Positions 1-35,682 of a DNA stretch of 64,000 bases are shown here, piece by piece. Position 1 is the stretch's first letter. Every line of letters begins with the position of its first letter. Position numbers and translations under genes: made by a program. Origin of the DNA: Pseudomonadales bacterium. Its GTDB lineage: Bacteria; Pseudomonadota; Gammaproteobacteria; Pseudomonadales; Azotimanducaceae. Where the stretch lies: positions 1-64,000 of the forward strand of contig JAJECH010000025.1 of assembly GCA_022822135.1 (NCBI GenBank), written 5' to 3'. Under the pieces are notes generated by a model that saw only the letters and a program-made list of their open reading frames with translations, was not told where the DNA came from and did not search any database.

Positions 1-114
1 AAGATATATAACCCGTTAAGGCGGGTTTCATTGAACCGAAACGAGCTGGAGCAACTTGCCAGGCTCGATGACGAGGAGCGAAGCAATGAAAATGGCTTCG
101 ACCCTCTTACTTAA
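1..114 (+). CDS. C-terminal end of a gene entering from the left, function unknown
   Basis: An open frame begins at base 1 and runs 37 codons to a TAA at 112-114. The residues are hydrophilic and acidic toward the end (ELEQLARLDDEE), with normal codon use for this window, so this is probably the 3' end of a real gene whose start lies outside. The fragment is too short to name a family. A small hairpin at 10-27 (AACCCG/CGGGTT) lies inside this frame and so is probably not a terminator. Confidence 0.5.
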   Translation, partial: KIYNPLRRVSLNRNELEQLARLDDEERSNENGFDPLT

Positions 115-613
115 TGTGTCCCCTAAAACGTGCGCAGTCCCCGATCCTATGCATCAATTTCACTCAAGTGTCGCCTTCGCAATATCATTTCCAAAGCAAT
201 TAACTAATCAGAGGATCCGAAAATGACAGGTACTGACGTGATCTAATGTGACAAATCGTTGCCATTTACTTGCATATCCGTTGGTGGACTAAATTCGTCG
301 TGAGAAGCGCGGTGGCGAAGGCATCTTCATCGAAATTGAAGCTATCGCTAACGACATTGCGGAACCAAAGAAGCACTATCAGGCCGCCTAAGCAATTCGA
401 ATGTGGTGGCGATTAGTTGAATAGACTGGTCTGCATCCTGTTGGATCTGCCTTCTTACTCGCTACGCTTCTTGTACCGTCGTGTACCAGCCACATCTGCA
501 CGCTTCAACGATCCTTGGAACTAAAGTGATGCACCGCCGGATTCTTGGAAGAAACTAACAAAACGAGAACGATCGTTCAATCTGAGCGCAAACAAGAAAC
601 GTAATCACGTCAG
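115..613. other. Intergenic stretch with a possible gene remnant
   Basis: No complete gene is visible in about 500 bases. A short open stretch on the plus strand (293-391) has coding-like composition, including IFIEIEAIANDIAEPKKHYQ before a TAA. It has no start codon of its own and a stop immediately upstream, so it may be the 3' end of a decayed gene. DUF2283 genes often sit next to a DUF4258 gene, but no DUF4258-like frame was found here. Confidence 0.35.
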
Positions 614-29249: not shown

Positions 29250-29963
29250 CTAACCGCTTAACAGCTTTTCCCGCCTGTTACTCCGCATAAACGCAAGACC
29301 AAGAATCGAAAGAGTAAGCAAGAAATACCCAATTCGATTCTGCATGGTTGCCGCCAATAAGGTCTCAGGGTCCGCGTCAAATAAACTGAACGGGTTGTAA
29401 AAAGGCGAAAACACGCGTTGAACATTGCCAAAGCCTGATACGAATGCAAAAAATACAAGCACAAGCGCCGTAGCAACCGCGCCTCCTATCTCGCTTCGAA
29501 ATAACGCCGACATTCCCATCGCCAGAACCATGGCAAAGAGCGCTCCTTGCAGCGCTCCTTGCAGCGCGAGAAGTGGGTATTTCGTAATAAAAAACCAAAC
29601 ACCAATCCCGAGCAGAATCTCGACTGGAAGCAGTATGAGCACAGCTGCGAGCAACTTGACCCACCAAACGCGTTCACATCCCCCAGGTACCGTGTAAACG
29701 ATTTCCAAACTTCGACCACTGATCTCACTGGCAATGATTCTCAAGCCAAGGAAGACACCGATAAAAACCAGCGGAATCCCAATCAGTGTTACCTGCGCAT
29801 GCCCACCGTTGAATCCATCAACTAGCCCAACGTACTCGAGCAAGAATAGTCCTAGGACCCAGATCGGTGCCACCAACAAAATCAAGTAAAAATACTTCCC
29901 CGAGAGACTGATCGCAGCATAGCGATACATCTCCAAGCCGCCCAATAAAGATCGTAGATTCAT
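29250..29963 (-). CDS. ABC-2 type membrane permease
   Basis: The 237-residue membrane protein has six hydrophobic segments and an ABC-2 permease layout: a first span, the conserved loop ASEISGRSLEIVYTVP before span three, and a C-terminal FYNPFSLFDAD loop before the last span. The ATG begins two bases after the stop of the RND-ABC fusion gene, so the two are one operon. The only ABC ATPase domain in the operon is the one fused to the RND pump, which makes that ATPase its likely partner. A 12-base tandem duplication (29540-29563) lies in the codons for its fourth hydrophobic stretch. Confidence 0.82.
   Translation of the reverse strand: MNLRSLLGGLEMYRYAAISLSGKYFYLILLVAPIWVLGLFLLEYVGLVDGFNGGHAQVTLIGIPLVFIGVFLGLRIIASEISGRSLEIVYTVPGGCERVWWVKLLAAVLILLPVEILLGIGVWFFITKYPLLALQGALQGALFAMVLAMGMSALFRSEIGGAVATALVLVFFAFVSGFGNVQRVFSPFYNPFSLFDADPETLLAATMQNRIGYFLLTLSILGLAFMRSNRREKLLSG
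29540..29563. repeat. 12-base tandem duplication in the permease gene
   Basis: GCGCTCCTTGCA occurs twice in a row, followed by a further partial GCGC. On the coding strand it doubles the peptide LQGA inside a predicted membrane helix, lengthening it by four residues, about one helical turn. Confidence 0.85.
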
Positions 29964-29965
29964 CG

Positions 29966-32900
29966 TTACGTCGTATCGCCGATCAACCAGAGGTACCCGT
30001 CTTCGAGATTCGCATTGACCTTCGTTGCGTCACGCACAGGTGCTTCTCTCGCTAATATCCTTCTGCGAACTTGCCCGCCTCCGGTTGGCGTTTCGTTAAC
30101 AAGAATCGCGCCTTCTGGAAGTTCAAACCCAACATCTTCGGATTGCTCGAACGTCCAAACCTTGTCGTCCGCATACGTAGAGAGATCCGACGGCGCACCA
30201 TCGAATTGCATCTGATTTCGAGCTAGCACAAGTACTCGATCGCATGCTACTGCCACGTCATCAACCACGTGCGTAGAGAACAAGACGATTCGGTTCTGTG
30301 CGAGTCGACTGAGCAGATTTCGAAATCGAATACGCTCTCTCGGGTCAAGACCGACGGTAGGTTCATCAACAATGATGATCGGTGGTAGTCGCAACAGAGT
30401 TCTTGCCACCGCCACCCGTTGCCTCATCCCGCCTGACAAACTACCGATTGCATCGTCCTCCTTCTCGTCGAGGCCGACTTCCTTCAGCAGGCTGTCAACT
30501 CGCTCTTCGCGATCCGCGACAGGGATTTCATACAAACCCGCATAGTACATTAGGTATGCCTTGGGGGTCGACCCAGCGGGTAATCCAGAGTCCTGTGGAA
30601 GGTAGCCAATCCAACGCGCTAAGTGCTTTCTCAGCAGATTGATCGGTACGCCGCCAAGCGACACCAACCCGCTAGTCGGTTCAAGGATTCCCGCCATTTG
30701 TCTCAGTAAGGTCGTTTTACCCGCGCCGTTCGGTCCGAGAATACCGATCATGCCGCGCTCGGCAATGAAATCCACACCCGTAAGCGCTTTGACCTCATCA
30801 CCTTGCATATCCAATCCGGCCAATCGTTTCGACCAACGTCTCACGAACGTTCGCGGATATCGGAGAAAACCCTCTACGCGCTCTGGAATATCGCCTCGAA
30901 TCTGTCTGACAGCACTCCGGCGCATGAACTGCAACACGAACAAGACCACGCCGATAGCGATCGGCCAGATCAACGGTACCTCAGGAACCTCGTTTTCAAG
31001 TGTCGGTCTCACGTTGACGATGTAGACGTTTATCGCAATCGCGACCCAAGGTAATCCGTATACCAACACGGTCACCAGACCATTCGGAATGACCGACCCG
31101 GTATCGTCCACTCGACCCAAGAGGCTGCGAATCTCATAAGTAAATAGAGCAATACAGCACGCCACGCCAAGCGAAGCAAGTAATCCCCATAGACCTTCGA
31201 TCGTCAGATAACTGATCGCTCCAAAACCCGCCGCGACAATTAGAAAAACAAGCACTTTTTCAATCGAATCGGCCCGCGAGAACATCACACCGCCACGTTC
31301 AATGACGCGACTAATGAACTCCTTGCGTCGCTCAATCGTTGCGCGCAACGGACCTGGTAGACCGTAGATTTTGCCGAGGTGTTTGACCTCAAGTAGCGGT
31401 GGACCTCCGTCGGTGTGAGGTTCCGGTGGCTCTTGTCTACGGAAGAACATCACTATCAGCGCGAGTAAACAGCCACCCACGAGCAAGGCGACGATGAACT
31501 GCCAGAGGATTGATTCCAACAGACCAGACCAGATTAACCACGTCATGATGGCAGCTGTTGCACCAACCCAACCGACCATTAACCATGGCCCGACGCGACC
31601 GAATATCCGATCCAGTCGGTGCAGCAAGATGTAGCCGACTGGAATGACCAATAAAGTCAATAGCGCTGAGGTGATTAAACCGCCGATTACCGTCACTGCG
31701 AATCCGGGCCAGATTTCGTTTTCGCGTCCTGTTGAGACGGCTAGCGGTGCTAACGCTGCGATCGTCGTCGCAGTCACCAATAACACCGGTCGGGTACGTT
31801 CTCTCATCGCAGATAGTGCTGCGGCACCGCGTGACCAGCCGGCATCAAGCGTCTTCCTTTGCATGCGATCCACAAGCAAAATCGCCGGATTTACCGTGAG
31901 GCCAACCAACGCCAACATGCCTACAAGGACACCCGGCTCTAGCGGCTTTCCAGTAAAGAACAACACCCAACCCGATCCCAGCATGGTAAGTGGGAGTGCA
32001 AGCAACACCAATACCGGTAATGACAACGACTCAAAAGTCATCGCCAACACAAGGAACAAGAACAATATTGCAGGAAGCAAGACCTTCGACACCGCAGAAA
32101 CATCTTCGTTTTGCTCTGGCGTTTCGATCACATACTCAGGCGGTCGCGGCGCGCTTGCCGCCATCATGTTGATTTGCTCTCGAATAGATTCGAGCGCCTC
32201 ACCCGATGAAGGCGCTGAACTACTAAATCGATAGTTGACCGCCATTTCGCGTCTGCCATTCTTGTGCACGATCACAGGGGATGGTCGCATCTGACGCGCG
32301 GTTGCAACCGTCTCTAGGCGAATGGCTCCAGCAGTCGTGTTAATGCGCATGTTGCGCAAGTCGCTGAGCGAGGTCGTTTCATCTCTTACGCCGATGCGTT
32401 CAACGACGATAGGAATCTCGCGGCCCGACGGTAACGCGTAATCCGTTGCCATTTGGACGCCTTCCGTACCAGCGATATTGAGGTTCCCGAGAACATCGGT
32501 AAGTTGCAATCCGAGGGAGTCAAGAACGCTTTCGTTCGGACTAACCCAGAGTTCAGGATCGCCACGAGGCGCCGCGACCCATGCGCCCGCAATGAAGTTC
32601 GCCCCCTCCAATCGCTCCTCAATGTCGTCGGCAACATTCCAAAGCGTTTGAGAGTCAGGACCAGACACAACGATGCGACCTGGCGGCGCATCGTTAAACC
32701 TGGACGAGGCTCTCCTTCGTCGATCCGAGCTATAGTCCTGCTCTCCCGGATTCATGACGTCGATGCCTCTGAGTTTTGCCGCTAGCTTGGATACACGCCC
32801 TCGAATCGCACCGACGGTGAGATCTTTAGGGCGATCATCGAGGTCAACGAATTGCACCGTGAGCTGTGCACCTTCTTTATTGCCGTTGACAGTCACGGAC

Positions 32901-34744
32901 TCCACGCCTTCAATGCTCAACAGCTCCGCCTCAATGCGGCTCATCACATCGACGGCGGCGTCGATGCTCCGTGCGCCACGATCGAACATCACGTTCATCT
33001 GGACGTTGTCAGCATTCTGCGCACCACTCGCCGTCGTACCGGCAATGACCGGTATCCACGCAAAAAAGATGGTGAGTAAGACTGCAAACGCGACCCCAGT
33101 CAACCACGTCGCCGGGTAGCGTAGTGCGGATTTCGAAACACCCGTCAAAAACACACGAAGGAAATCGGGCGCGACCAGTCCGCCTCGCTTCGCGTGCACT
33201 TCACGCTGACGCTCGACTCGTTTCAGTGCGGCGGGTGCGGCGAGACGATGGGCAAGCAACGGCACCAAACCAATCGCTACGAAAAGTGATGTACCGATTG
33301 GCAGCAACAATGAGACGGCAACGATCGTTATGAATTCCTGAATGAACGTGTTTTCAAGATCTATCAAAACGATTGGGAGGAACACGACCGCAGTCGTCAA
33401 ACTTGCTGCCGAAATTGCTCGTATGGTTCGCCGTATGCCTTTTTCAGCAGCTTCCGCGATCGGAACCTGACGTTCAACACCACGCAAAATCGCTTCATAC
33501 ACGACGACGCTGTTATCAACGAGTAACCCCGTCGAAACGGCCAAACCGAACAAAGTCAGTAGATTGATGCCGTACCCAAAGAGGTAGAGCAACGCCAACG
33601 CTAAGACGATACTGATTGGTACGGCGACTCCCACCACCAACACCGCGCGCCATTGGCGTAGGAACAGGAACAACGCGAGCATCGATAGGCTTAAACCGAT
33701 CAAACCGAGTTTGGTAAGCCGTGTGAGCTGTTCGCCGACTTGCTCCGAAGCGTCCTGCAGCACGACTAAGTCAATGCCCATCGACTCGAGTTCTGCTCGG
33801 ACGTCTGCTACTCGTTCTCGTAATGCGCCACCAAGCTCAACTAAATTAGCGTTTTCCTCTTGATAAACGGTGATGCCAACCGCTTCTTCGCCGTTAACGC
33901 GGTAGAACGAATCGTGTGCCGCGTAGCCGAAGAAAACATCGCTTGTGTGGCGCAGTTCTGCGGGCGATTGACCAGAAATCTGGGTGTTCTCAAGCGTCCG
34001 AAGGTTCCGCAAACGTCCGTCCAACATGACGGGCGTTACGCCTGTCTCATCTTCTAAATTACCCATGTAGCGTAAAGAGCCAGCGCTCCGTTCGATCGCT
34101 TGGGTAATGTCCTCCGTATTAATTCCCAGCATCGCCGCCGCACTCGGATCGACCTGGATCACGACTTGCCTGCCACCTCCGCCAGAAGTGGTTGCTTGCG
34201 CTACGCCAGGAACCGAAGCAAAGCGCGGCGCGATGACATCGGCGGCGATATCGAACAACACGTCGGTGTCGCCGGTTCCTCCGATGACAGAGATGTCCAT
34301 TACGAATGTGTCGAACGTACTGGTATTCGCAGCACGCACGCCTATGTACGTGGTATTTCGCGGTTGCTCACGCTGTAACCGCGACGCGATCCGTCGAATC
34401 TCATATTCGCGGATCTTGATATCCGTACCCGGTTTAAACTCGATTTGAAGACTGCCTTGAGAACCGCGAATCTGTCCAGTCGTCTCACGAACATCCGGAA
34501 TCGAACCGATTCGCGACTCGAGTTTGTTGAGAATTTCACGTTCCAGTAGCTCGGGACTACTGTTCTGACGCGAAAACATGACCGTTATCGTCTCGCCTTC
34601 GAGTGAAGGTAAGAGCGAGATCGGCATTCTTTGAACTGCGATCAGACCTAGCAGTAGGCATGCGAGAAAGAGCATGCTTGTCGCCATAGGTCGCCTGATC
34701 GGCAGACTTAGTATTGCGTTACTATTGAAAGAGCGTGTGGCCAC
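29966..34744 (-). CDS. RND efflux permease fused to an ABC ATPase
   Basis: The 1592-residue protein has an HAE1-type RND pump at its N-terminus (to about 1060): an IRRPMATSMLFLACLLLGL first helix, two large periplasmic loops, and two six-helix bundles. AcrB has Asp-Asp in helix 4, where this protein has Asp410-Asn411 (LLVDNSVVV); helix 10 has TVNPAILLVD instead of the Lys-Asn of AcrB. Variants like these are common in the wider family. Two extra spans follow (about 1065-1105). Residues 1117-1128 (LLEVKHLGKIYG) look like the first strand of an ABC-2-type ATPase. About 175 residues with four predicted spans then intervene before ALTGVDFIAERGMIGILGP and Walker A from Gly1337. The signature LSGGMRQRVA, Walker B PIIIVDEPTVGLD and the switch His in FSTHVVDD follow. 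It starts with GTG. No adaptor (HlyD/AcrA) or TolC-like gene is nearby; an ABC-2 permease gene follows after two bases. Confidence 0.9.
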   Translation of the reverse strand: MATRSFNSNAILSLPIRRPMATSMLFLACLLLGLIAVQRMPISLLPSLEGETITVMFSRQNSSPELLEREILNKLESRIGSIPDVRETTGQIRGSQGSLQIEFKPGTDIKIREYEIRRIASRLQREQPRNTTYIGVRAANTSTFDTFVMDISVIGGTGDTDVLFDIAADVIAPRFASVPGVAQATTSGGGGRQVVIQVDPSAAAMLGINTEDITQAIERSAGSLRYMGNLEDETGVTPVMLDGRLRNLRTLENTQISGQSPAELRHTSDVFFGYAAHDSFYRVNGEEAVGITVYQEENANLVELGGALRERVADVRAELESMGIDLVVLQDASEQVGEQLTRLTKLGLIGLSLSMLALFLFLRQWRAVLVVGVAVPISIVLALALLYLFGYGINLLTLFGLAVSTGLLVDNSVVVYEAILRGVERQVPIAEAAEKGIRRTIRAISAASLTTAVVFLPIVLIDLENTFIQEFITIVAVSLLLPIGTSLFVAIGLVPLLAHRLAAPAALKRVERQREVHAKRGGLVAPDFLRVFLTGVSKSALRYPATWLTGVAFAVLLTIFFAWIPVIAGTTASGAQNADNVQMNVMFDRGARSIDAAVDVMSRIEAELLSIEGVESVTVNGNKEGAQLTVQFVDLDDRPKDLTVGAIRGRVSKLAAKLRGIDVMNPGEQDYSSDRRRRASSRFNDAPPGRIVVSGPDSQTLWNVADDIEERLEGANFIAGAWVAAPRGDPELWVSPNESVLDSLGLQLTDVLGNLNIAGTEGVQMATDYALPSGREIPIVVERIGVRDETTSLSDLRNMRINTTAGAIRLETVATARQMRPSPVIVHKNGRREMAVNYRFSSSAPSSGEALESIREQINMMAASAPRPPEYVIETPEQNEDVSAVSKVLLPAILFLFLVLAMTFESLSLPVLVLLALPLTMLGSGWVLFFTGKPLEPGVLVGMLALVGLTVNPAILLVDRMQRKTLDAGWSRGAAALSAMRERTRPVLLVTATTIAALAPLAVSTGRENEIWPGFAVTVIGGLITSALLTLLVIPVGYILLHRLDRIFGRVGPWLMVGWVGATAAIMTWLIWSGLLESILWQFIVALLVGGCLLALIVMFFRRQEPPEPHTDGGPPLLEVKHLGKIYGLPGPLRATIERRKEFISRVIERGGVMFSRADSIEKVLVFLIVAAGFGAISYLTIEGLWGLLASLGVACCIALFTYEIRSLLGRVDDTGSVIPNGLVTVLVYGLPWVAIAINVYIVNVRPTLENEVPEVPLIWPIAIGVVLFVLQFMRRSAVRQIRGDIPERVEGFLRYPRTFVRRWSKRLAGLDMQGDEVKALTGVDFIAERGMIGILGPNGAGKTTLLRQMAGILEPTSGLVSLGGVPINLLRKHLARWIGYLPQDSGLPAGSTPKAYLMYYAGLYEIPVADREERVDSLLKEVGLDEKEDDAIGSLSGGMRQRVAVARTLLRLPPIIIVDEPTVGLDPRERIRFRNLLSRLAQNRIVLFSTHVVDDVAVACDRVLVLARNQMQFDGAPSDLSTYADDKVWTFEQSEDVGFELPEGAILVNETPTGGGQVRRRILAREAPVRDATKVNANLEDGYLWLIGDTT

Positions 34745-35010: not shown

Positions 35011-35682
35011 ATGGATTTTCTAGAAATCATCAACTACATGGCGCGTTGGGGTCATTACGTATTTGGTGTCGCATGGATCGGTTTGCTTTATTACTTCAAC
35101 TTTGTTCAAGGTGGTTTCGCCGCGAATGCGTCTGATTCCACCAAAGTAGAGCTGTTCACCAAGTTAGTTCCCACGGCATTGTGGTATTTCCGATGGGCAG
35201 CTCTATTGACGTTCCTAACAGGCGTGGTATTACTGTATTTCGTTCATGACGTTGGTCTGCTTACAAGTGGTCTGCTAATCGGCGCTTTAATGGCAACCGT
35301 CATGTTCCTAAACGTCTGGTTGGTGATCTGGCCGAATCAAAAGATCGTCATCGCGTCTAATGAATCGATCGCTGGGGGCGGCGAAGCGGACCCAGGTCAG
35401 GCGGACGCAGCAGCCAAAGCACTGTTGGCATCTCGTACGAACACATTTCTCTCACTCCCGATGCTCTTTCTTATGGGTAGTTCAGCACACGGGAGTCTAT
35501 GGATGAAAGGAGATGCTTGGAATCAACCTAGCTATGACTTCTGGGTCCTATTGATACTCGTCATCCTGATTGAAGCCAATGCACTGTTCGGGAAGACCGG
35601 ACCCCTAACTACTGTCAGAGGGGTCATTGGGAGCAGTGTTATCTTGACGGTAGTGATGTTTGCTGTGCTAGCTTGGCTGTAG
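35011..35682 (+). CDS. PuuD-like urate hydroxylase membrane domain, without cytochrome c part
   Basis: The 223-residue membrane protein has about six hydrophobic segments and matches the urate oxidase N-terminal domain (Urate_ox_N), as in PuuD. It begins with a short helix then RWGHYVFGVAWIGLLYYFNF, later VWPNQKI-like VIWPNQKIVIAS, and a SLPMLFLMGSSAH segment with a conserved His. PuuD oxidises urate to 5-hydroxyisourate with a membrane domain joined to a C-terminal cytochrome c. Here the protein ends after the membrane part, so it is a shorter relative whose activity is not assured. GGGGGAGA precedes the ATG. No other purine-degradation genes are near. A clear terminator follows. Confidence 0.75.
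   Translation: MDFLEIINYMARWGHYVFGVAWIGLLYYFNFVQGGFAANASDSTKVELFTKLVPTALWYFRWAALLTFLTGVVLLYFVHDVGLLTSGLLIGALMATVMFLNVWLVIWPNQKIVIASNESIAGGGEADPGQADAAAKALLASRTNTFLSLPMLFLMGSSAHGSLWMKGDAWNQPSYDFWVLLILVILIEANALFGKTGPLTTVRGVIGSSVILTVVMFAVLAWL

Follow-up and report, generated by a model that had tools for sequence, protein, structure and literature searches.

One gene of the window (the whole stretch of 64 000 nucleotides that was analysed) codes for a single polypeptide in which a complete RND permease is followed by an ABC ATPase, and this ATPase, intact in its motifs, is interrupted by a membrane insert placed just after its first strand. Comparison with related genomes revealed that the fusion is inherited together with a second RND permease, RND1, and belongs to a set of six genes, which in the genus of the window organism is divided between loci. 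Besides the fusion, this larger set contains an adaptor, a second RND permease and a second ATPase.

The fusion gene and its interrupted ATPase

A preliminary description of this region had claimed one intact frame, and the frame is indeed open over 1592 codons, from a GTG start to a TAA stop (Table 1). The domain order put forward there (RND permease, two spans, first ATPase strand, four spans, rest of the ATPase) was borne out by Pfam searches and by an AlphaFold model of residues 1045–1592. The RND part, called RND2 hereafter, is matched by the whole ACR_tran domain (profile positions 2–1021 of 1021); it scores under the cut-offs of the NCBIfam permease subfamilies, and its nearest solved relatives include 7cz9, 8zxs and MdtB. 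In the ATPase part, the Walker A, the Walker B Glu, the signature, the Q-loop and the H-loop are all present, and the catalytic motifs are retained across 42 fusion homologues. The curated ATPase models closest to it are GldA and DrrA, both under cut-off.

Table 1. Features of the fusion gene and of associated genes (window coordinates unless a contig is named)
Feature	Position	Strand	Basis
RND2-ABC fusion gene, 1592 aa	29966..34744	(-)	Single open frame; full-length homologues
HAE1-type RND permease part, residues 12-1042	31619..34711	(-)	ACR_tran, E 1.4e-139; motifs
Two extra membrane spans, helices 1046-1072 and 1079-1101	31442..31609	(-)	AlphaFold models
First ATPase strand and A-loop Tyr1127, residues 1117-1128	31361..31396	(-)	Tyr invariance, model, structural alignment
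Insert, residues 1129-1316	30797..31360	(-)	AlphaFold models, homologue conservation, pN/pS
Rest of ABC ATPase, residues 1317-1540	30125..30796	(-)	ABC_tran, E 2.4e-27; motifs
Walker A, residues 1337-1344	30713..30736	(-)	Motif alignment
C-terminal tail, residues 1541-1592	29969..30124	(-)	AlphaFold model
PERM2, 237-aa ABC-2-like permease	29250..29963	(-)	2 bases 3' of fusion stop
Large permease copies, window genome	G000:C47:5986-9468, C27:25045-28509, C37:6883-10329
Expanded large-permease region, G002	G002:C15:30377-63370 (L184, L185)

The gap of 209 residues that had been noticed between the first strand and Walker A is real. In the ordinary ATPase ABC1, encoded by the same genome, 30 residues separate the A-loop Tyr from the Walker A Lys; in the fusion both residues are invariant in the 42 homologues aligned, at a spacing of 206–225 residues, so that its ATPase departs from the contiguous layout in which the first strand precedes Walker A by about 30 residues. 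The Pfam matches differ accordingly: ABC_tran covers residues 1330–1463 of the fusion and starts only at profile position 11, whereas ABC1 is matched from position 1. The AlphaFold model, of moderate confidence (pLDDT 76.9, pTM 0.57; 65.0–76.9 over five models), has six long helices, the two extra spans listed in Table 1 before the first strand and four after it (1157–1180, 1185–1208, 1222–1249 and 1259–1283); the insert also contains a helix at either end, 1132–1149 and 1295–1309. Residues 1118–1127 form a strand when modelled with the rest of the ATPase and are disordered when modelled without it. LptB (4p31_B, residues 2..228) aligns structurally with 222 residues over model positions 72..481, the alignment beginning where LptB residue 2 pairs with model residue 72. 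Because 222 aligned residues exceed the 208 contained in positions 274–481, at least 14 of them precede position 274. The preliminary description had named a model placing residues 1117–1128 outside the ATPase as evidence against its view; according to this alignment, the model puts the strand 1118–1127 within the ATPase.

The insert is conserved among homologues. Comparison with three relatives about 90% identical gave an insert pN of 0.058–0.084 versus a pS of 0.59–0.68, and with a fourth (79% identical) 0.195 versus 0.79, ratios which are rough since synonymous sites are near saturation; pN/pS is low in the RND, insert and ATPase segments alike. Mean column identity is 49% in the profile of the six extra spans (A4, from 35 of the 42 fusions) and 57% in that of the spans plus ATPase (A5, from 41 of the 42), profiles A1 and A2 having been built from 20 sequences. 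Profile comparison gave no similarity between the six-span region and PERM2, and a fold search gave no convincing match for the six spans, for which reasons we refrain from describing them as an ABC transmembrane half.

Distribution of the fusion

At a threshold of E 1e-60, 31 of the 58 genomes searched (own included) match the fusion. The search for homologues of the same architecture, proposed in the preliminary description, was successful: the fusion is full length in 21 of these genomes, again with the window's own, i.e. in 18 of 18 of the genus and in three other genera, with 45–91% identity to the others. In a 22nd genome (G023) the copy is broken by contig ends, and nine genomes match the RND part only. 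In G784 (L212) the fusion is found as two frames of 705 and 900 aa, and the break lies inside the RND part; separate RND and ABC genes, or a break at the RND/ABC junction, which had been anticipated as a ground for rejecting the fusion, occur in no homologue read. The copies outside the 42 aligned fusions are those of G001, G012 and several family genomes, as well as L212, L215, L219, L220 and L221.

A profile of the insert matches 40 of 150 genomes of the family, in 8 of its 37 genera, but no more than 4 of 293 genomes of the order, all four in the same family, and 2 of 369 of the class (own included). Among the family genomes with the fusion, G701, G723 and G737 consist of a single contig. 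Named genomes, when scanned, yielded 20 loci: 18 belong to gammaproteobacterial MAGs and the other two to a MAG labelled Bacteroides sp. SM23_62, the only one to match among 395 genomes of its phylum; misbinning or transfer is possible for this occurrence. This MAG has two copies of the set, L081 (LJUP01000099.1) and L082 (LJUP01000003.1), both read only from inside the large permease onward, which may stem from transfer, duplication or misbinning. Two closely similar operon copies are also present in the 2.2 Mb genome G742, on contigs C10 and C6 (L115, L129), by duplication or as an assembly duplicate. Going by isolate names, we take the near relatives of the window organism to be sponge symbionts. 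The occurrence of Nitrospira sp. SB0677 in reef sponges, as reported in the part of PMC12203066 covered here, fits a sponge origin and is no proof of it.

A set of six genes

Outside the genus, the genes come in the order ABC1, large permease, adaptor, RND1, fusion and PERM2. Among the 26 of the 42 aligned fusions that belong to other genera, all six genes are consecutive at eight loci (L040, L041, L117, L118, L121, L122, L127 and L128, the large permeases of L040 and L041 having been recognised by alignment); most other loci are interrupted by sequence or contig ends. Gene order was read from the longest non-overlapping frames, a procedure by which some genes are hidden in G+C-rich loci, and PERM2 alone was rechecked, with tblastn. 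RND1 is directly upstream of the fusion at 25 of the 26 loci and at the 26th (G030, L055) an RND fragment at the contig end occupies its position. At L112, ABC1 lies beyond PERM2 and a large permease was not found; upstream of L113 only adaptor and RND1 were found, and the gene-order reading found no adaptor at L116 and L130. The claim that an ABC-2 permease directly follows the fusion stands as regards position: PERM2 is the next gene at all 41 loci without a contig cut (33, two more, L121 with a short copy, and five from the tblastn recheck), and so provides an ABC-2 permease partner. As regards family, 21 of 33 PERM2 homologues match ABC2_membrane_2, but the copy of the window has no Pfam match.

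The genus shows a different arrangement. RND1 is single copy in 18 of 18 genomes, always with adaptor and large permease beside it and, in 17, with ABC1 as well (in G001 there is a contig break). Upstream of the fusion, read in 16 of the 18, there is a divergent small membrane gene and not RND1; in G001 and G012, separate contigs carry the fusion and RND1. In the window, a small membrane protein matching Urate_ox_N is encoded at 35011–35682 (+), and the genus loci read have a similar-looking gene upstream of the fusion, in divergent orientation. The other half of the set of the window genome is at C47:4955-13696. Its adaptor is above the cut-off of TIGR01730 (RND_mfp, E 1.9e-55). The earlier statement that no adaptor gene adjoins the fusion is therefore true at the window, but an adaptor as expected of an RND tripartite system does exist, on C47 here and in the same operon in relatives. 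As for the outer-membrane channel, the two OEP genes of the genome, on C8 and C21, adjoin neither the fusion nor the C47 locus, and the six-gene set comprises no channel gene. In G005 (L054:2482-6042), the fusion locus also has a 1186-aa large permease, placed past PERM2 by about 670 bases and in the same orientation; it is a link between the two split loci.

The large permease itself is about 1160 aa long and weakly ABC-2-like, with a Golvesin_C-like end in 19 of the 22 copies, out of many, that were aligned (A6). At E 1e-30 it is expanded in some relatives, with 30 matches in G002, 26 in G011 and 22 each in G005 and G009 versus 3 in the window genome, with no matching increase of ABC1, RND1 or the fusion, each of which is single copy. 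In G002, nine large permeases are grouped around ABC1, upstream of adaptor and RND1.

Two RND subunits and relay residues unlike those of AcrB

Among the 150 family genomes, the fusion is found in 40 and RND1 (at E 1e-200) in 37, all of them within the 40, a co-occurrence counted inside one family and hence confounded by descent. The three fusion genomes without RND1 are G030 (RND fragment at the contig end), G784 (RND1 fragment before the fusion) and G711 (73% complete). RND1 and RND2 form separate clades with support 100/100 in a tree of 13 of the 42 RND2, 12 RND1 and five other RNDs of the genome, in which long branches are flagged, and they are 24–30% identical in the pieces aligned. The set thus holds two distinct, co-inherited RND subunits, as an MdtABC-like heteromer does. 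For the ATPases, an ABC1 query at E 1e-40, in a field of 29–82 candidates per genus genome, returned exactly two matches per genome in 18 of 18, namely ABC1 itself and the fusion ATPase. Conversely, the best match of the fusion ATPase in its genome is ABC1, narrowly (144.3 versus 137.4 bits for C61:21039).

The AcrB-type proton relay consists of two Asp in TM4 and a Lys in TM10. The solved 7cz9 has VDD in TM4 and the TM10 Lys. In 41 of 41 sequences, RND2 departs from this type by a single Asp in TM4, which reads VDN or IDN, and by Asn-Pro in TM10; RND1 departs too, with VDN and Asn-Asp in 12 of 12. In the five other RNDs of the genome, TM4 reads VDD, VDG or IDG, and the TM10 Lys is absent from all five. 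Judged by these residues, the relay is non-AcrB-like in both RND subunits and only partly kept, which alone is no proof that proton drive is lost. The idea of a proton-driven and an ATP-driven module in one chain is consequently upheld for the presence of both domains, but the proton half, with VDN and no TM10 Lys, is less sure than it had seemed.

Possible modes of action

By analogy with MdtBC, we infer that the fusion may contribute one subunit to an envelope exporter that combines both classes, a mixed RND trimer of which one RND subunit also bears an ABC exporter, and we give this reading an even chance of being right. Sequence, model and comparison establish the single chain, the interrupted ATPase with its motifs, the six-gene set, its division in the genus and the co-inheritance of RND1; the heteromer, the docking, the hand-over, the ATPase pairing and export itself are proposals. 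In favour of the reading are the gene order, the co-occurrence and separate clades of RND1 and RND2, the two matches per genome of the ABC1 query, the retained catalytic motifs and the position of PERM2. Against it count the six spans without similarity to PERM2 or a convincing fold match, the partly kept relay, the moderate confidence of the model, a set with no channel gene, the operons in which a member was not detected and the narrow lead of ABC1. RND2 and RND1 would form the trimer, as MdtB and MdtC do, and it would sit on the shared periplasmic adaptor and on an outer-membrane channel supplied by another locus of the genome. The fusion ATPase, anchored by the two plus four extra spans, would partner PERM2, and ABC1 and the large permease would probably join them, making up an exporter that runs on ATP and is docked to the RND trimer. 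A putative substrate might then be moved by the ABC part across the inner membrane or out of it, and be handed onward by the RND part via adaptor and channel. Fusion would hold the parts in a fixed geometry and may link the ATPase cycle to that of the RND. A bolder version, which we consider unlikely, is that ATP powers the RND wholly or partly: a heterodimer of the fusion ATPase and ABC1 would drive a mixed exporter (PERM2 plus an interchangeable large permease) within the RND1/RND2 trimer, the inserted spans carrying the ATPase stroke into the RND membrane domain. If so, a single motor and a single exit duct would, in some genomes, be shared by as many as about 30 exchangeable permeases.

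Another reading, a doubtful one in our opinion, is that the fusion is only a tether: the RND pump and an ABC exporter made of the fusion ATPase and PERM2 would work independently, fused for co-localisation or equal dosage, without energetic coupling and possibly on different substrates. The constant place of PERM2 after the fusion, as in an ordinary ATPase-permease pair, and the fact that, next to the ATPase, no part is less conserved than the six extra spans would agree with this. But a mere linker needs no four spans within the ATPase, kept at near-constant length in 42 homologues and under low pN/pS.

It is quite unlikely that the ATPase moves no substrate and instead gates or assembles the RND trimer, through recruitment or opening of the adaptor, with PERM2 as an accessory subunit. 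Such a role would suit an ATPase hard-wired to the RND chain through membrane spans, and extra energy or control could help two RND subunits that both have a non-AcrB relay, but the ABC-2 family matches of the PERM2 homologues, and the membership of a second ATPase and a large permease in the set, argue against it.

We see even less reason to favour a system for envelope building, in which a lipid, glycan or peptide product would be brought to the outer membrane or surface and the periplasmic part of the large permease would bind the cargo. The Golvesin_C-like ends and the copy number of the large permease point to cargo-specific modules more than to drug efflux, but Golvesin_C is poorly informative on function, and no cargo or biosynthetic neighbour gene was identified.

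Finally, the chance that an assembly or frameshift artefact joined two genes is practically nil: the broken frame of G784 would fit it, but this objection, foreseen in the preliminary description, is already refuted by full-length collinear frames throughout the genus and in other genera and by 41 full-length homologues in the alignment, and the low pN/pS also makes it very unlikely.

Comparison with known systems

Each half of the fusion comes from a known family. For their combination in a single chain, for the insert of membrane spans in the ATPase and for the six-gene set, we found no description in the open-access literature searched by topic, and the passages covered of a review of tripartite systems (PMC8277102) mention no such fusion. 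RND pumps are viewed as proton-driven and ABC exporters as ATP-driven, i.e. as separate classes, and here a conserved chain unites both. Such a chain, its ATPase split just after the adenine-contacting residue, offers a natural test of whether ATP can be coupled to an RND cycle, for which the six-gene set names candidate partners; where relatives have expanded their large permeases, one may ask whether one pump serves many cargo modules.

The exporter proposed above resembles MdtABC and MuxABC in having two different RND subunits and one adaptor per operon, and MdtB is among the nearest solved relatives of RND2. According to the part of PMC4338810 consulted, MdtB and MdtC are about 50% identical, when RND1 and RND2 reach 24–30% in the pieces aligned, and MdtBC is a B2C complex whose subunits differ in role. 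Unlike in these systems, one RND bears here an ATPase and six extra spans, and the operon has two ATPases and two permeases. With ABC-2 exporters of the DrrA/GldA type the fusion shares the best, below-cut-off fit of its ATPase and an adjacent ABC-2-like permease gene; those exporters are encoded by separate genes, whereas here an RND precedes the ATPase in the same chain, and four spans part the first ATPase strand from the rest. MacB, as presented in the sections of PMC8277102 covered, resembles the proposed exporter as an ABC transporter that works with an adaptor and an outer-membrane channel, and it has its NBD fused to its permease; but MacB has no RND part, while in the present case an RND permease is what the ATPase, itself interrupted, is fused to. 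Finally, the whole ACR_tran domain is common to RND2 and the AcrB-type homotrimeric pumps, from which RND2 differs by the replacement of the second TM4 Asp and the TM10 Lys of its solved relatives and by the ATPase attached to it.
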